Shown one piece after another: positions 1-23,272 of a stretch of DNA of 60,603 bases. Source of the DNA: Butyrivibrio sp. Lineage in GTDB: Bacteria; Bacillota; Clostridia; Lachnospirales; Lachnospiraceae. The stretch spans positions 1 to 60,603 of the forward strand of contig JAGAAO010000077.1 in assembly GCA_017615275.1 (NCBI GenBank), read 5' to 3'. A model generated the notes under the pieces. It made no database searches, had not been told where the DNA came from, and saw only the letters and a program-made list of their open reading frames with translations. Each line of letters starts with the position of its first letter. The first letter of the stretch is position 1. Position numbers and translations under genes: made by a program.

Positions 1-134
1 GACCAGAGATTTGCTTACAGCTTCCTTCAGATTCCACCTCACGATGGACACCCTTGCTGTTCGGCTATACACTTCCCACTATCTGGGCGTGTTCGGGACT
101 TGCACCCGTTAGAGCGCGCCCATGGCGCGCAAAC
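1..134 (-). mobile_element. Group II intron (IIC-like), 5' part of domain I, runs off the left edge
   Basis: Read on the minus strand, the segment starts near base 134 and contains, in order, ATGGGCGCGCTCTAACGGGT, then GCAAGTCCCGAAC, CAAGGGTGTCC, GGAATCTGAAGGAAGC and CTCTGGTC. This order matches what I recall of the 5' half of domain I in bacterial group II introns of the Oceanobacillus O.i.I1 (class C) kind. The intron begins directly after the T-tract of the ilvE terminator, the usual target of class C introns. Domains II-VI and any reverse transcriptase gene would lie outside the window, so completeness is unknown. The exact 5' base (132-134) is uncertain. Confidence 0.75.
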
Positions 135-13043: not shown

Positions 13044-15512
13044 TCAATCTATATTAAGTATCTGCTTAACAAGTCTCACTGCATCGGCAGCGTCGGATGA
13101 ATAACCGTCCGCTCCGATCTCTTCGGCATAATCGGGAGTAACAACCGCTCCGCCGATTATTATCTTGGAATCGAGATTTTCTTCGTGAGCAAGATCCACA
13201 ACGTTCCTCATTTCCTTCATTGTTGTGGTCATGAGTGCAGAAAGAGCTATAACGCTTGCGTTGTTTTCTTTTGCAGCCTTAACTATCTCTTCCTTGGGAA
13301 CATCTTTTCCGAGGTCGATGACATTAAAGCCGTAATTCTTAAGCATAAGTGCTACGAGATTCTTACCGATATCGTGAATATCACCGTGAACAGTCGCTAT
13401 GACGACAGACGGAAGCTTCTCCCCGTCGTCCGCGCTTCCTTTCAGTAAAGGCTCAAGATAAGCGATAGAAAGCTTCATTGCCTCCGCACCCGCAATAAGC
13501 TGCGGAAGGAAATATTTGCCCTTATCGAATAAGTCACCCACTTCATTGATCGCAGGCATAAGAACCGTATCGAGGATTACTCTCGGATCGATTCCCATAT
13601 TCACGGCTTTTTCCGTATTCTTTACGATGCTTCGCTTAGAGCCCGTGAGCACATCTTTTTTTATTATATCAAGAATATCATCATTAGAGTTAGTGGTGAT
13701 TTTAACCTCTTTTCCCGCAGGGGCACCACTCTCGTTCTTAATTTCGTAACGTTGCATCCTCTGAATGTAGCGAAGATCTGCGCCTTCCTTCTTCTTAAGA
13801 AGGTCTGATGCAAACGCAGCATTTACCAGCATTTCCTGAGACGGATTGGCAATCGCCATAGAAAGTCCCTTTTCAATCGCCATGGTCAAAAACGCTGTAT
13901 TTACATTACTTCTCTGAGGAAGTCCGAAAGAAATATTGGAAAGTCCGCATATTGTGGCAAATCCGTTATCATGACAGTATTCAATAGTTTCAAGCGTATT
14001 GAGCGCAGCCGCAGGATCTGCTCCGACAGTCGCAACAAGTCCGTCCACGACAATATCCTCTTGGGTCATGCCCATCTCGTATGCCATTTCGGAGAGCTTA
14101 AGTATATTGGAGATTTTCTCCTCGGCATTCTTGGGAAGCCCCTCAGGATTAAGCGGAAGGAGAATAAACATAGCTCCGTACTTCTTTGCAAGAGGAAGGA
14201 ACACTTCGGCTTTACCCTTTTCAAGCGAGATTGAGTTCATAAGCGCTCTTCCGGGATATCTTCTCAGAACCGCCTCCATTACTTCAGCACTACTGGTATC
14301 AAGGCACAGCGGAAGGTCTGTTATCGAAGTAACCTCTTCCATAACCGTAAGCATCATTGCTTTCTCGTCGATTCCGCTCATACCTACGTTGATATCGAGG
14401 ATCGAAGCTCCGTCTTCTTCCTGCTTTTCCGCAAAATCTATGACCATGTCAAGATTTCCTTCGCGCAGCTGCTCCTGAAGCTTCTTTTTACCTGTAGGAT
14501 TGATTCTCTCGCCGACTATCATAAACAGATCGTCCATACCAAAAGAAAGACTGCTTCTCTCAGATGAAAGATATCTTCTTCCGACAATCTTTCTGGGAAT
14601 GGGCGCACCTTCTTCATCTCGTATCTGAGAAGGTCTGACATCTTTATATTTATTCTTAAGACCTCTTATAAAATCGGGAGTGGTTCCGCAGCATCCGCCC
14701 AGAACAGAAGCTCCCGCATTTATAAGCTTCTCCATCTCGACAACAAAAGTCTCACAGTCCATGTCGTACTCTGTGTTTCCGTTCTCATCAACAGAGGGAA
14801 GTCCGGCATTGGGCTTAGCGATAATAGGAGTATTTGTAACAGAAGCCATGTTTCCGATGATCTCAACCATCTTGTCGGGACCTGTCGAACAATTCGCACC
14901 TATAGCACAAGCGCCAAGTGCTTCCAGAGTAATGGCGCTTGCCGATGCATCCGATCCAAACAGCGTCCTTCCGTCAGCTTCAAACGTAAGCGTCACCATG
15001 ACCGCAAGGTTCGATACCTCTTTGGCTGCAATAAGGGCAGCTCTGCATTCCTGAAGACTCATCATCGTCTCGACAACAAGCAGGTCGCATCCCGCCTTTT
15101 CAAGTATGCGTATCTGCTCCTTGTAGACTTCAATAAGTTCCTCAAAATCAAGGTCGCCTATAGGCTTTAGCTGCTTGCCCGTCATAGTCAGGTCACCTGC
15201 GACAAGTGCTTTTCCATCGACTGCTTCTTTCGAAAGTTTGACCAGCTCAGAATTGATCTCCTCTATCTTTCCGTCAAGCCCGTAATCTGCGAGCTTGATC
15301 CTGTTTCCCGTAAAAGTGGGCGCATAGACGATATCAGAGCCCGCCTCTGCATATGCGCTCTGAAGATCCTTCATAACCTGCTTGTGCTCGAGTATCCATT
15401 CCTCAGGACACACACCCACAGGCATTCCCGCTTTGATAAGATTCGATCCCGTTGCTCCGTCAAGGAATATTACCCTGTCTTCGCAATACTTCAAAAATTC
15501 TTCTCTGGTCAT
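13044..15512 (-). CDS. metH: Cobalamin-dependent methionine synthase, short form without activation domain
   Basis: An 822-residue methyltransferase. Domains in order: homocysteine-binding barrel (about 1-290, with zinc-site cysteines in NCSTG and GGCCGTTP), pterin/methyl-THF barrel (about 310-570, opening GERINPTGKK), cap helices, and the B12-binding Rossmann domain (about 690-822) with DIHDIG, whose His713 should be the axial cobalt ligand. The C-terminal AdoMet reactivation domain of E. coli MetH is absent; this is common in Clostridia, where reactivation would need a separate protein not seen here. The ATG at 15512 overlaps the preceding stop by one base (TGATG), implying coupling. Confidence 0.94.
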   Translation of the reverse strand: MTREEFLKYCEDRVIFLDGATGSNLIKAGMPVGVCPEEWILEHKQVMKDLQSAYAEAGSDIVYAPTFTGNRIKLADYGLDGKIEEINSELVKLSKEAVDGKALVAGDLTMTGKQLKPIGDLDFEELIEVYKEQIRILEKAGCDLLVVETMMSLQECRAALIAAKEVSNLAVMVTLTFEADGRTLFGSDASASAITLEALGACAIGANCSTGPDKMVEIIGNMASVTNTPIIAKPNAGLPSVDENGNTEYDMDCETFVVEMEKLINAGASVLGGCCGTTPDFIRGLKNKYKDVRPSQIRDEEGAPIPRKIVGRRYLSSERSSLSFGMDDLFMIVGERINPTGKKKLQEQLREGNLDMVIDFAEKQEEDGASILDINVGMSGIDEKAMMLTVMEEVTSITDLPLCLDTSSAEVMEAVLRRYPGRALMNSISLEKGKAEVFLPLAKKYGAMFILLPLNPEGLPKNAEEKISNILKLSEMAYEMGMTQEDIVVDGLVATVGADPAAALNTLETIEYCHDNGFATICGLSNISFGLPQRSNVNTAFLTMAIEKGLSMAIANPSQEMLVNAAFASDLLKKKEGADLRYIQRMQRYEIKNESGAPAGKEVKITTNSNDDILDIIKKDVLTGSKRSIVKNTEKAVNMGIDPRVILDTVLMPAINEVGDLFDKGKYFLPQLIAGAEAMKLSIAYLEPLLKGSADDGEKLPSVVIATVHGDIHDIGKNLVALMLKNYGFNVIDLGKDVPKEEIVKAAKENNASVIALSALMTTTMKEMRNVVDLAHEENLDSKIIIGGAVVTPDYAEEIGADGYSSDAADAVRLVKQILNID

Positions 15513-16561
15513 CAATTATTTTCCTTTTTAACTAATAATGGTGTGAAATAAAACAAAATCAAACATATGGCTGCTACCAAAAAGAACTTGAGCCACATCG
15601 GAGGGTATGGAATCACCCCGCTATATGATAATCTATCAAGCACCGCTATAACAAGTACATGATAATAGTAAATTACGTTAGAACTCTTTTTTCCGATCTT
15701 ATAGAGATATTTACCGGAATATACATTGCATTCGGACAAAAGAAATATTCCGATAACTGCGATCAGCGAACCTATATACACTTCTTTTTTGTCAAATATA
15801 AAAATCTCAGCAACGGACATTGCAAGTCCGACTGCGATCATAAATATGAACTTAGGCTTTTGCCCCGTCATCACATCGACATAAGAATCTTTGTACTCTT
15901 CCCTCTTTTTCCTGAATATATCGGACAAAAGAATGCCGAGAAGCACGAACGGAACTCCGACAAAGAGCCAGTTTCTCATAACATACCACGTCGTGATGCT
16001 GATGTCGAATGGGCGGATCGGATAAAATGTCTGAAGTGCCTCTCCAAAATACAAACCAAAAAGAAGCAATCCTATAAGCCACTTATACCACTTTCTGAGA
16101 ACTCCGGCAAAAATATATATGAGCACCATCACATAGATAAGTGCAAATAAAAACCACATATGATCAAATACAAATACCGAATCATACACATAGGTTCCCG
16201 AATTAAACAGAATGAACCACAGTCCTTCTTTCAGAGAATACTTGGAAACCAGCCACTCTTTTATCGAATCACCAAGATACACATGTACTATAAGAGAAAA
16301 TACAAAATACACTGCGTATACAATCCCTGTTATCTTCAATATCTTAACGAGATATTTTCCGCTCTTTGTTCTTATCTTCTCTGTGCTGTCGTCTCCGTCC
16401 CTCAGAAGATATCTTCCCGCCAGAGTAAAGAAAAACGGAACCGCGATTCTGCTCACGGCATCCATTGCAAGTCCGAAGTTTCCGGGGAATCTCGTATGAA
16501 TCACTATGACAAGCATACATGCTATGAAATTTATAAGGTATAAAAACCTGTTCTCCTTCAT
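15512..16561 (-). CDS. Acyltransferase 3 family membrane protein (OafA/WecH-like)
   Basis: A 349-residue protein with about ten membrane helices. The first helix ends in HTRFPG, matching the family's catalytic-type His near the end of helix 1, and SRIAVPFFFTLAGRYL resembles the second conserved segment. Such enzymes transfer acetyl or succinyl groups to surface sugars or polymers; the acceptor is unknown. The start is taken as ATG 16561 with AAAAGG 8 bases upstream; the frame continues to a GTG at 16600 lacking a ribosome site. The stop overlaps the metH start by one base, an odd partner for a methionine synthase. Confidence 0.85.
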   Translation of the reverse strand: MKENRFLYLINFIACMLVIVIHTRFPGNFGLAMDAVSRIAVPFFFTLAGRYLLRDGDDSTEKIRTKSGKYLVKILKITGIVYAVYFVFSLIVHVYLGDSIKEWLVSKYSLKEGLWFILFNSGTYVYDSVFVFDHMWFLFALIYVMVLIYIFAGVLRKWYKWLIGLLLFGLYFGEALQTFYPIRPFDISITTWYVMRNWLFVGVPFVLLGILLSDIFRKKREEYKDSYVDVMTGQKPKFIFMIAVGLAMSVAEIFIFDKKEVYIGSLIAVIGIFLLSECNVYSGKYLYKIGKKSSNVIYYYHVLVIAVLDRLSYSGVIPYPPMWLKFFLVAAICLILFYFTPLLVKKENN

Positions 16562-17156: not shown

Positions 17157-17582
17157 TCAATCACTATATTTTGACGCAGCCTTTAGTCTGGTAAGCGCTC
17201 TGGCAAGTCCCGCCTGAGATTTCTTGAATTCCTTAATGGACTGCTTTTGCTGCAGATGTTCCATCGCAAATTCATAGGCTTCTCTTGCCCTCTGCTTATC
17301 GATATCTTCCGGTTTCTCAACCGTATTGACTATAACTATACATCTATTGTTCGCAACCTGAACAGAACCAAGACTGACTACACCGTAAAGCCATTCGCCG
17401 CCGGGTTTCTTAATCTTGATAACTCCGTCAGACAGCGCAAGAATCATTTCCTCATGGTTTGCAAGAACGGCAAGTTCTCCGTCTGCACAAGGGAGAATAA
17501 TTTCTTCTGCCCTATCGTCATAAAATATTCCATTTACGGAAATTACCCTCAATCCGAAGGTCATAACCTTTTCACCATTCAT
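17157..17582 (-). CDS. atpC: F1 ATP synthase epsilon subunit
   Basis: A 141-residue subunit with the N-terminal beta-sandwich (about 7-90, including the ADGELAVLANHEEMILAL segment) and a C-terminal two-helix domain (about 95-141) that can inhibit ATPase activity. It links gamma to the c-ring. The ATG at 17582 has GAGG 8 bases upstream; an ATG at codon 7 would also suit the family's usual start. Four bases separate it from atpD. Confidence 0.93.
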   Translation of the reverse strand: MNGEKVMTFGLRVISVNGIFYDDRAEEIILPCADGELAVLANHEEMILALSDGVIKIKKPGGEWLYGVVSLGSVQVANNRCIVIVNTVEKPEDIDKQRAREAYEFAMEHLQQKQSIKEFKKSQAGLARALTRLKAASKYSD

Positions 17583-17585
17583 ATT

Positions 17586-19900
<2,315 letters not shown>

Positions 19901-19914
<14 letters not shown>

Positions 19915-21688
19915 TTTCCAATTCTTCCTTAAGTTTCTTGTTCTCACTGTCGTTGAAGGCATCAACGGCATCGAGAATCCTCTTCTTTAACTGTTCCGAC
20001 ATATCTCCGCTCTTCTCGAGCTCTTCACAGATGTCACCCTGCTCCGCAGCAAAATATTCAAGAAGCTTTTCTTTATATTCTTTGACTCTCTTGACGGGGA
20101 GCATATCAAGTCTGCCCGCACCGACAGCAACCAGAATGATTACCTGCTCATACATGGCAAGAGGATGCTCAAGAGGCTGCTTAAGCAGCTCCATAAGTAC
20201 ATTACCGTGAGCGAGCTGATTCTTGGTCGTCTCATCAAGATCGGAACTAAACTGTGTGAACACTGCCATTTCTCGGTACTGCGCAAGATCTACTCTTATA
20301 CTTCCCGCAGCTTTCTTCATAGCTTTGGTCTGAGCTGCGCTACCTACACGGGATACAGAAAGACCAACGTTTACGGCAGGTCTCATTCCCTCAAAGAACA
20401 GATCGCTCTCAAGGAATATCTGTCCGTCCGTGATTGAAATGACATTGGTGGGAATATATGAAGATACATCTCCCGCCTGCGTCTCGATAATGGGAAGGGC
20501 TGTTATAGAGCCGCCTCCAAGTTCCGATGAAAGCTTACTTGATCTCTCAAGAAGTCTTGAATGCAGATAAAATACATCTCCGGGATATGCTTCTCTTCCC
20601 GGTGATCTCTCAAGAAGAAGTGAAAGCGCTCTGTATGCAACTGCATGCTTGGAAAGATCGTCATAAACAATAAGGCAATCCTTACCCTGATGCATAAAAT
20701 ACTCAGCCATTGCAGTACCTGAATAAGGTGCAATGTACTGAAGAGGCGCCATATCCGAAGCAGTGGAACTTACAACTATCGTGTAATCCAATGCTCCCGT
20801 CTTCTTAAGTGTCTGTATGATCTTTGCGACGGTAGATGCCTTCTGTCCGATCGCAACATATATGCATATTACATTTTTGCCCTTCTGATTGATAATGGTA
20901 TCAAGGGCAATCGATGTCTTACCGGTCTGTCTGTCGCCGATAATAAGTTCTCTCTGTCCGCGTCCTATAGGGAACATGGTATCGATAGAAAGAATACCCG
21001 TTTCCATCGGTTCATTGACAGATTGTCTTTCAATAATACCGGGTGCAGGCTGCTCGACAGGTCTGTAACCGGATTCTTTGATATCTCCGAGCCCGTCAAC
21101 AGGAGTTCCGAGAGCATCTATTACTCTTCCAATAAATGCTTCTCCGACAGGTATCCCGGCTTCTTTATAAGTTCTGACAGCCCTTGTTCCCTGTCTGATT
21201 CCCGTATCGTTTCCGAAAAGGATACAACCGATATGGTCATCTCTAATATCCTGAGCCATTCCTCTGGTTCCGCCCTCGAACTCGATGATCTCTCCGTAGA
21301 AAGCATGCTCGATTCCGTCGATATTGGCGATTCCGTCTCCTACCCAGGTTACAGTTCCGACCTCTCTGTCACCAATGGCAAGATCAAAACTCTCAACTTT
21401 GTTGCTGAGCATGCTTATGATCTTACCGGTTTCACTCTCTCCGGTCTTTCTGCTTATGTTATTTAATTCCGCGCGAAGTTGCCTTGCTCTGCCAGCGTCG
21501 GACCAATCGTATTCAAAGTTCTTACAAGATACGATAAATCCGCCACCTATAGAGGTATCCTGAACAAGTTCAAGGTCTATTTCAGAAACCCCAAACTTCT
21601 TAAGGAGAATAGCTTTAATCTTGGAAAGCTGTTCATCACTGGGAGCAACGCCCGCATAGCGCAGTTTTGCTTTCAAAATCTCACTCAT
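19901..21688 (-). CDS. atpA: ATP synthase alpha subunit with N-terminal delta (OSCP) C-terminal domain fused
   Basis: A 595-residue protein, about 90 residues longer than ordinary alpha subunits. Residues about 86-595 are alpha: [11 protein letters not shown] of the N-terminal barrel, P-loop GDRQTGKTS (about 251-259), and the helical C-terminal domain. Residues about 12-78 do not belong to alpha. They contain [15 protein letters not shown] followed about 18 residues later by IGGGFIV and RARQLRAEL, the order and spacing of the b-binding C-terminal domain of delta/OSCP (EQLEKLKAAL..., IGGFVV..., RLERLRQ-like). The operon has no atpH between atpF and atpA and the delta N-terminal six-helix domain is missing. 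Start ATG 21688 has GGAG 6 bases upstream and overlaps the atpF stop by 8 bases; an ATG six codons earlier is less likely. Confidence 0.93.
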
Positions 21689-22172
21689 TATTTGCTCCGG
21701 CTTCATTTATAAACTTTTCATATAATTCCATGTCATCGGCAGCACTGTGCTTGGTAGCCGCAATCTTGGATGCGGCATCAATAACCATATCGGTAAGCTG
21801 AGCAGCATATACCTCTTTGGCACGCTCATTCTCAACTTCCGCATTATGCTTTGCCTCGACAATGATCTGATCGCCTTTTTTTCTGGCTTCACTGACAATA
21901 CGCTCATATTCCGCATATCCCTGCTTCTTGATATCGGCAAGGATCTGCTCTTTTTCTTCATCAACATGAGCTATCTTGTCTTCATATTCTTTCTTTGTAT
22001 TTAAAGCTTCCTGCTCAGCCGTTTCAGCTGCTTTTGTAGCGCTTTCGACTTCCTCTCTTCTCTGAACGAGGACAGCATCAACCCTGCCAAAAAGAAATTT
22101 TTTAGCAACAAAATACAAGATCAAAAGATTTAATATGGTCAAACCTATGTTTAATAGACTTACTTCTAACAC
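21681..22172 (-). CDS. atpF: F0 ATP synthase b subunit
   Basis: A 163-residue peripheral stalk subunit: one N-terminal membrane helix (about 5-24, [20 protein letters not shown]), then a long charged coiled coil to residue about 140. Normal length and only one copy, so it would form a homodimer. It carries no fused delta domain at its C-terminus, unlike the mycobacterial b-delta protein. GTG start with GAGAGGGG 7 bases upstream. The end overlaps the atpA start. Confidence 0.94.
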
Positions 22173-22203: not shown

Positions 22204-22422
22204 TTATGAGAAAAGAATGATCATAATAGCTACTACGAAACCATAGATGGCTGTAGCCTCTGCAAGTGCACATCCCAAAAGAAGAAGCTTCATTATCTTA
22301 CCGTCAGCCTCAGGCTGTCTTGCAACCGCATCTGTAGCCTTTGCAGTAGCCAAACCGATTCCGATACCTGCTCCGATTCCGGTAAATGCAGCGATAGCTG
22401 CTCCTATTGCTGTTAAACTCAT
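22204..22422 (-). CDS. atpE: F0 ATP synthase c subunit
   Basis: A 72-residue hairpin of two membrane helices joined by the polar ARQPEADGK loop. The ion-carrying glutamate is E54 in ALAEATAIYG. Compared with the Na+ c-ring of Ilyobacter, the helix-1 glutamine is replaced (GIGIGLA rather than GVGQGYA) and the serine after the glutamate is alanine, so proton coupling is more likely; this is an inference from remembered Na+ ligands. Confidence 0.96.
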   Translation of the reverse strand: MSLTAIGAAIAAFTGIGAGIGIGLATAKATDAVARQPEADGKIMKLLLLGCALAEATAIYGFVVAIMIILFS

Positions 22423-22446: not shown

Positions 22447-23130
22447 TTATTCAACGGCTTCTTTAATGTATAATGACGTCAAAAAGACAAAGACATATGC
22501 CTGGATTGCTCCGTCAAATATGTCAAAATACAGGCTAAACAGCGCCGGAAAAAATACCGGCATAACAAATTTAATAAGCTCCATGATAACGGTGGCTCCA
22601 AGAATATTACCGAACAGTCGCATGCAAAGAGACAAAGGTCTGATCACAAGTTCCAGAACATTCATAGGTGCGATTACCGCCATGGGCTGTGCAAAGCCTT
22701 TTAACCAGTTCTTAACCCCTCTCTTCTTAATACCTGCGGCTTCAACCAAAATGATGCTCATGATTGAAAGTGCTATCGTAACATTCAGATCCATCGTCGC
22801 GGGCGTAAACCCGAACAATCCGACCATATTGGAAAAAGCTATAAAGATAAGCACGGTACCTATATAATCAGCGTACCTTATTGCTTCTTCTCCAAGCATT
22901 CCACCTGTCACGCCCCTGATCCAGAGGACAAAACTTTCAACCGCAGCCTGGCGCTTTGAAATATTATGCACCGTAAAGCCACGCGTAAGGAACAAGATAA
23001 GGATAAACAAGAACGCAATAACGATCCATGTCATGACAACGGATTTGTAAATCTCCAAATATCCGCTCCCAAAAGGAACTTTTAAAAAGGTTTTGTCTTC
23101 CATTAAAAGTTCATTCAGTAATTCCTTCAT
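22447..23130 (-). CDS. atpB: F0 ATP synthase a subunit
   Basis: A 227-residue multi-helix stator subunit forming the ion half-channels. The conserved segment VIRPLSLCMRLFGNILGA (about 149-166) holds the essential arginine (R in CMRLFGN). The longest frame begins 45 codons upstream, but GGGAAGG lies 8 bases before the ATG at 23130 and the promoter sits between, so 23130 is the start. It is the first gene of the atp operon; no atpI was seen. Confidence 0.95.
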   Translation of the reverse strand: MKELLNELLMEDKTFLKVPFGSGYLEIYKSVVMTWIVIAFLFILILFLTRGFTVHNISKRQAAVESFVLWIRGVTGGMLGEEAIRYADYIGTVLIFIAFSNMVGLFGFTPATMDLNVTIALSIMSIILVEAAGIKKRGVKNWLKGFAQPMAVIAPMNVLELVIRPLSLCMRLFGNILGATVIMELIKFVMPVFFPALFSLYFDIFDGAIQAYVFVFLTSLYIKEAVE

Positions 23131-23161
23131 ATTGTTTACCTTCCCTAAAAATATAACTATT

Positions 23162-23190
23162 ATTATAGGAAATTTGTCTGAATATTGCAA
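23162..23190 (-). promoter_or_regulatory. Sigma-A type promoter of the ATP synthase operon
   Basis: Minus-strand -35 TTGCAA (23185-23190), 17-base spacer, -10 TATAAT (23162-23167), about 30 bases upstream of the atpB start. Consensus strength fits a highly expressed operon. Confidence 0.85.
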
Positions 23191-23223
23191 CGTTCCTCGC
23201 ATGGTTACTGAAAGTTTCAACGA

Positions 23224-23272
23224 AAACAAAAAGAGTTTTGAACTCATAAATGTAACCAAGTTCAAAACTCTT
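23224..23272 (-). terminator. Rho-independent terminator after the coiled-coil surface protein gene
   Basis: Minus-strand 14-bp perfect stem AAGAGTTTTGAACT / AGTTCAAAACTCTT with a 14-base loop, then TTTTGTTTTC. It insulates the atp promoter from the gene at 23294-25747. Confidence 0.9.

Follow-up and report, generated by a model that had tools for sequence, protein, structure and literature searches.

How is an F-type ATP synthase put together when its operon has no gene for the delta subunit? This question is raised by a contig of a Butyrivibrio sp. (Lachnospiraceae; GenBank assembly GCA_017615275.1, contig JAGAAO010000077.1), of which positions 1 to 60,603 are called the window below. A preliminary description, made from the sequence alone, had proposed that the alpha subunit of its ATP synthase is fused to the C-terminal domain of delta (OSCP), that there is no atpH gene, and that each alpha in the head would therefore carry its own domain for binding subunit b.

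An ATP synthase operon with a fused alpha gene

We found all the F-type subunits a, c, b, alpha, gamma, beta and epsilon encoded in one operon on the minus strand of the window, in the order atpB-atpE-atpF-[fused atpHA]-atpG-atpD-atpC (Table 1). The gene, its coordinates and the operon order are as first described. Alpha, b, gamma, epsilon and beta were identified by profile matches, and subunits a and c by reading the sequence only. Because the fused gene starts within the end of atpF, the operon leaves no space for atpH. A GGAG run lies shortly upstream of the fused start at 21688. The open reading frame can be extended to an ATG at 21706, giving 601 residues; the frames of relatives favour 21688. 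The AtpA model TIGR00962 spans residues 95-586 of the 601-residue frame (748.9 bits). The true start of atpB may be internal to the annotated ORF, and that of atpG is probably near 19911.

Table 1. The fused gene, its parts and the neighbouring ATP synthase genes in the window.
Feature	Position	Strand	Description and basis
Fused delta(C-terminal domain)-alpha gene	19901..21688	-	595 aa plus stop; ORF and profile matches
Delta/OSCP C-terminal domain	21449..21661	-	residues about 10-80; binds b in known enzymes; profile matches and model
Short linker	21413..21448	-	residues about 81-92; alignment with 9JC1
Alpha subunit proper	19904..21412	-	residues about 93-595; TIGR00962, 748.9 bits
atpF, subunit b	21681..22172	-	163 aa; the operon's single b gene; PF00430
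atpE, subunit c	22204..22422	-	predicted H+-type ion site, by sequence; identity read from sequence
atpB, subunit a	22447..23265	-	position and sequence; ORF from first start codon
atpG, subunit gamma	18964..19971	-	PF00231; ORF from first start codon
atpD, subunit beta	17586..18977	-	ORF and profile match
atpC, subunit epsilon	17157..17582	-	PF02823 and PF00401

The other subunits and the gene order are those of conventional F1Fo enzymes (E. coli, Bacillus PS3). In those enzymes, however, delta is a separate protein, its N-terminal domain lies on the threefold axis and there is one stalk, whereas in the window delta is fused and its N-terminal domain is absent.

Two other kinds of enzyme were considered and rejected. 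N-type (alternate) F1F0 ATPases have an operon order without delta, as in the window, according to the accessible part of PMC5709465, but their gene order differs, and the window alpha passes the ordinary AtpA model. Against the N-type models, alpha scored 601.8 (TIGR03324, cut-off 750.5) and b scored 49.9 (TIGR03321, cut-off 224.7). The same part of PMC5709465 lists units without delta in Clostridia, and these may be operons of the present kind in which the fusion went unnoticed. Mycobacterial b-delta proteins (PDB 7jg5 and relatives; weak profile match, E 0.021) also place the delta C-terminal domain on a neighbouring subunit. Their fusion partner is b, whereas the b of the window has a PF00430 match over cut-off and no PF00213 (OSCP) match at E up to 10.

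The N-terminal extension is the C-terminal domain of delta

We found that PF00213 matches the fused protein with 25.8 bits (curated cut-off 22.3). The match aligns residues 22-81 of the 601-residue frame with positions 113-172 of the 172-position profile. When only the first 90 residues of that frame were searched, the score was 30.0 bits (E 6.5e-7). A profile of 17 fused N-domains aligned with a profile of six real delta proteins at an hhalign probability of 96.9 (E 1.5e-10), with only delta columns 107-178 aligned. Searched against PDB sequences, the fused N-domain profile matched 28 distinct sequences at E up to 1. Twenty-seven of them were delta or OSCP chains, b-delta chains, or the fused 9jc1 chain; the remaining match was an unrelated, weak one to CzcD (E 0.49). 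In the PDB delta and OSCP chains, the part aligned was the C-terminal half. For residues 1-194, the best of the eight PDB sequences listed was 9jc1 chain I (delta subunit plus alpha subunit), which aligned in one collinear stretch, 10-194 to 8-190 (E 7e-28).

An AlphaFold model of the window protein was of middling quality (mean pLDDT 68.2; residues 1-70 at 75-87). Of the 38 sequences from which it was made, three were long forms supplied with the N-terminal domain removed. In its N-domain, a strand and a helix are followed by three strands and a second helix. Foldseek ranked the three fused chains of 9JC1 as the best three matches of this model, over 574-575 columns, with an rmsd near 10 A and a score to which sequence also contributes. 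This result supports the fused layout, not structural detail. A VIA-align comparison covered mostly residues 82-588 and barely tested the N-domain. The Pfam, hhalign, PDB and Foldseek matches agree that the delta C-terminal domain is fused to alpha; the structural check suggested in the preliminary description was run, and the match to the delta C-terminal domain was found.

The N-terminal domain of delta is absent, as had been claimed. The Pfam match is confined to profile positions 113-172, and a home-made profile of the N-terminal domain detected none in six-frame translations of 136 fused loci (several genomes were entered twice). This profile found 8/8 controls, seven of which came from its training set and the eighth of which was weak (E 2e-4), so a diverged N-terminal domain could be missed.

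By sequence comparison, the fused delta domain is under purifying selection. Its dN/dS was 0.061-0.081 in the four of nine comparisons with unsaturated dS; that of alpha was 0.030-0.048. In the sample of loci inspected, subunit b retains a C-terminal helix that closes with motifs such as LYDKFINEAG. Residues 59-63 of the fused domain (about 21500-21514) read EYDWS, where ordinary delta has D-G-S or D-G-T. The Trp of this motif is invariant across 22 aligned Butyrivibrio N-termini, and the motif may reflect an altered contact of the domain with b or alpha.

We also asked about an internal start, because the preliminary description had named an in-frame start near residue 86 as possibly the real one. 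Fifteen of 22 Butyrivibrio fusions have an in-frame ATG 23 codons ahead of the alpha core, preceded in four of them by a weak Shine-Dalgarno-like run. The corresponding ATG of the window has no such run, and in five of the 22 fusions the stretch examined contains no start codon at all. An internal start yielding free alpha is not conserved among these 22 fusions and was rejected; a real start near residue 86 is not supported. In one locus (L028; G036:C6:216340-218097), from a genome listed as 99% complete, the fused alpha gene is broken by an in-frame TGA.

The fusion is widespread in Butyrivibrio and occurs beyond it

We found the fusion in 69 of the 79 Butyrivibrio genomes surveyed, which bears out the suggestion that it is lineage-wide. 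Fifty-four genomes have the fusion and a full-length delta, 15 have the fusion only, three have only a full or partial delta, and seven have neither. Butyrivibrio accounted for 57/80 loci found with the N-terminal profile, the closest matches included. A sample of 392 genomes from the order yielded at least 44 fusions without the delta N-terminal domain (NTD-less fusions; 18/18 Butyrivibrio, and 26 outside the genus) and at least 19 in which whole delta is joined to alpha. In a sample of 398 genomes of the phylum, NTD-less fusions occurred in at least five families outside the order and at least eight genomes, seven of them read as sequence. Of the fusions found in the order, sequences were read for 16 of the 19 with whole delta and for 23 of the 26 NTD-less ones from other genera; the rest were assigned by match extent and frame length.

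Is a separate delta encoded elsewhere? No separate delta over cut-off was found in the operon or in the rest of the window genome's assembly. A search with a relative's conventional operon showed that another contig of this genome, C59, begins inside a second, conventional atpD: its bases 2-439 encode the last 146 residues of a conventional beta, and epsilon follows (G000:C59:2-864, L288). The organism therefore has a second F-ATPase, with atpH likely in an assembly gap, and we dropped the conclusion that the window genome lacks atpH. The claim of a missing atpH thus holds for the operon but not for the genome, where the conventional F-ATPase operon is cut at a contig edge and a conventional atpH is probably present.

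Four relatives that are 95-99% complete (G008, G089, G091, G094) give a different picture from the window organism, which very likely has an atpH elsewhere. In each of the four, the fusion is the only OSCP match over cut-off and there is a single F-type alpha over cut-off. Three have one weak OSCP match in an unrelated frame, far below cut-off. All four have adjoining frames that resemble, by length and match, the A and B subunits of V/A-type ATPases; the sequences of the V/A-type A and K subunits were inspected for two of them, G008 and G089.

Some single genomes differ in other ways. Three of the same genus (G085, G081, G086) have neither an F-type alpha over cut-off nor an OSCP match, and have frames resembling V/A-type A and B subunits. 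Genome G079 has two fused alpha genes (on C60 and C309); with 8% listed contamination, this is a second copy or a mixed bin. Outside the genus, the NTD-less fusion L092 has about 45 residues before the domain, a possible remnant of the N-terminal domain.

The delta N-terminal domain was probably lost repeatedly

In other genomes of the order, whole delta, with both domains, is fused to alpha (L081-L091, L149-L153, L223-L227). The two kinds of fusion differ in the extent of the PF00213 match, which runs from 10-26 to 171-172 in 5/5 whole-delta fusions scanned and from 88-100 to 170-172 in 4/4 NTD-less fusions scanned. Whole delta on every alpha would leave three delta N-terminal domains to place on one head.

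We built trees from alpha without the delta part, with separate-delta enzymes as the outgroup. The NTD-less state required seven changes on a 106-row tree, with a tandem variant (described below) not counted as NTD-less, and seven changes on 112-, 62- and 47-row trees with that variant counted. In the 47-row tree, NTD-less L222 pairs with whole-delta L084 (support 99/98) and NTD-less L213 pairs with whole-delta L091 (100/97); the bootstrap of this tree had not settled. The SH-aLRT support of these pairs was 95-99 in the 106- and 112-row trees, and the L222 and L213 genomes are listed as 99-100% complete. The 47-row tree and the 62-row set used for the AU test are hand-picked subsets of the 106 rows. 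The 112-row tree left out L082, L087, L153, L207, L228, L201 and L085, and no tree included L092, L221, L229, L251 or L255.

A single origin of the NTD-less fusion is disfavoured by these comparisons. The AU test of one NTD-less clade gave p 0.0132 with all 32 NTD-less rows; with four rows of one distant group left out, p was 0.0545 and a single origin was not rejected. The direction of change follows the rooting of the trees, and their backbone has weak support. The probable order is fusion first, with the N-terminal domain dropped repeatedly afterwards.

The tandem variant is from Holdemanella sp. MAG4 (L171:4225-6489). Its fused alpha frame has 760 residues and three tandem delta C-terminal domains. 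The three PF00213 stretches differ in sequence, so they are not a simple assembly repeat. Among five Holdemanella genomes, one has three delta domains, three have one and one has no match. This layout would give nine b-binding domains per head.

The fused and conventional operons differ in predicted ion type

The c subunits of conventional operons have a glutamate at the position of Fusobacterium nucleatum Glu32, and Thr66 before Thr67 and Tyr70, in 30/30 loci read (a full-length delta is present in 56 genomes of the genus). The motif is that of the Na+ ligands of the F. nucleatum c ring, as given in the accessible part of PMC3692424, and the conventional c is predicted to be of Na+ type, with Thr replacing Ser66. 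The c of fused operons carries Ala at 66 within the motif AEATAIY, which was read in 71 of the 73 loci with both a c and an alpha frame; L170 and L171 differ. Five of these 73 loci are whole-delta fusions, and in two (L164 and L166) alpha is separate. By eye, position 32 holds neither E nor Q. The window c likewise has Ala at 66 and no E or Q at 32. The fused-operon c is thus predicted to be of H+ type.

The V/A-type K subunits of the fused-only genomes G008 and G089 have the motifs PGTQGIYG and VETYAIL, which correspond to Na+ ligands of Enterococcus hirae. Schoelmerich et al. (PNAS 2020) reportedly described two respiratory circuits in Pseudobutyrivibrio. RnfC was over cut-off in 10/10 genomes tested here, and among rumen butyrivibrios Rnf is recorded in 61/62 and Ech in 47/62 (PMC4478896, accessible part). 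We infer from the sequences that ion use is divided, the fused enzyme working with H+ and the conventional or V/A-type one with Na+. A bolder reading, somewhat less likely than not, is that the fused enzymes arose repeatedly, by fusion and then loss of the N-terminal domain, and form the H+ half of an H+/Na+ system in Butyrivibrio.

The natural fusion resembles an engineered enzyme with several stalks

The preliminary description took the fusion to be unknown. It is not: the same fusion has been built, and a natural case named, in PMC12229609, of which we cite the accessible part throughout, so that the window is a further natural case of a kind already in print. Structure 9JC1 was deposited with that paper and is an engineered Bacillus PS3 delta(dN)-alpha fused FoF1, in which the N-terminal domain of PS3 delta was deleted and the rest joined to alpha by a short linker. 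The window protein likewise has the delta C-terminal domain on the N-terminus of alpha, a short linker and no delta N-terminal domain; its junction is two residues longer than that in 9JC1. By SDS-PAGE, subunits a and b of the engineered enzyme stood at 2.2 and 1.8 times their wild-type levels, respectively. By cryo-EM, 15, 51, 26 and 8% of particles had 0, 1, 2 and 3 stalks, respectively, and the authors blame sample preparation for the low-stalk particles. The H+/ATP ratio was 5.8. The authors' argument is that the delta N-terminal domain, by its position on the threefold axis, holds the stalk number of conventional enzymes to one (PMC12229609). The engineered enzyme differs from the present one in that it comes from one thermophile, had the epsilon C-terminal domain removed and has a measured stalk number.

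The same paper states that a natural delta(dN)-alpha fusion occurs in Acidaminococcus fermentans (UniProt G4Q3K6 and A0A1I2C5T3), pending experimental verification. By that description, it has the same domain layout in an ATP synthase operon, in another lineage. In literature short of most subscription journals, we found no published Butyrivibrio fusion, and no report of whole-delta fusions, repeated N-terminal loss, tandem delta domains or an H+/Na+ pairing with the fusion.

We lean, by a small degree, towards a natural fused enzyme that docks two or three b2-a stalks. One gene encodes all alphas, so every alpha carries the b-binding domain. In this proton-type F1Fo, each of the three alphas would bear its own such domain, corresponding to the C-terminal half of delta. 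The operon encodes no part that would occupy the threefold axis. Without the delta N-terminal domain the head would be symmetric, and two or three b2-a stalks could dock. As with the engineered PS3 fusion, each turn would then carry a further set of H+ for every a subunit added; the H+ moved per turn would equal the c number times the a number, and the H+/ATP ratio would rise. Such an enzyme could synthesize ATP at low proton-motive force, or pump many H+ per ATP. In Butyrivibrio it would be a low-gear H+ machine beside an ordinary Na+-coupled ATPase.

Alternative readings

The main rival to several stalks is that the fusion simply replaces delta, with one b dimer bound and two domains idle, and that the covalent link takes over the anchoring once done by the lost N-terminal domain. 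We consider this reading doubtful. The single a gene and single b gene of the operon, the usual complement, fit one stalk and give no sequence sign of extra ones; conservation of the domain is expected with one stalk too, and loss of the N-terminal domain would also be expected if the link replaced its anchoring. The engineered enzyme can be read both ways. The collinear alignment with 9JC1 and the top Foldseek ranks tie the window protein to an enzyme that takes up to three stalks and averages about two by subunit stoichiometry, yet its largest particle class has one stalk (51%), 15% have none and only 8% have three. For this engineered equivalent, binding of up to three b dimers contradicts the idea, raised in the preliminary description, of one b dimer with two domains free. 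Nothing was seen in the natural enzyme that would block the other two sites; one gene supplies all three alphas, and no internal start is conserved. Docking of two or three stalks is also favoured by the delta N-terminal domain having been detected in none of the 136 fused loci with the home-made profile, by its probable repeated loss (seven changes; two well supported pairs), by the four near-complete genomes in which the fusion is the only OSCP match and F-type alpha over cut-off, and by the fused-operon c, which lacks the Na+ ligands (71/73) that the conventional c has (30/30). It is weakened by the whole-delta fusions, which must work with three N-terminal domains, and by the AU test, whose rejection of one origin is lost (p 0.0545) without one distant group of four rows.

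Two further readings bring in a second source of subunits. Heads could be mixed, with the domain on one alpha of three and the others supplied by an internal start, a protease or a second operon. We think this improbable: an in-frame ATG is present in 15/22 Butyrivibrio fusions, four with a weak Shine-Dalgarno-like run, but the window's ATG has no such run, 5/22 fusions lack any start codon in the stretch examined, and a start at that ATG would cut the N-terminal helix of alpha. A second F-type alpha, about 53-58% identical, does exist in most same-genus genomes compared, but none over cut-off in the four near-complete fused-only genomes. Less probable still is that the delta of the conventional operon also serves the fused complex, the fused domain being accessory. 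Such a delta accompanies the fusion in 54/79 genomes, and very likely in the window genome too. It was not detected in 15/79 (the window genome included, where a gap explains it), four of which are 95-99% complete with no other OSCP match over cut-off, and the fused domain keeps the b-binding half under strong purifying selection. An assembly or annotation artefact, in favour of which nothing was found, was rejected as having almost no chance of being right, since the same frame with a similar length recurs in many independent genomes, isolates included.

Significance

If natural fusions take two or three stalks, the ion-to-ATP ratio would be set by the number of stalks and not by c-ring size alone. 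Butyrivibrio isolates offer a whole genus for measurement, in which the conventional ATPase, predicted to be of Na+ type, would serve as an internal control within one cell; genomes in which the fused enzyme is the sole F-type are also on offer. The finding, if true, would bear on ATP-yield estimates for rumen fermenters and on the energy gained from small gradients by those with Ech and Rnf pumps (PMC4478896, accessible part).

Other features of the window

A group II intron fragment occupies positions 1-48 (minus strand), at the very end of the contig, and may explain the contig break. At 13044-15515 (minus strand) lies a gene for an 823-residue protein resembling cobalamin-dependent methionine synthase; judging by its length, it may lack a C-terminal reactivation domain.
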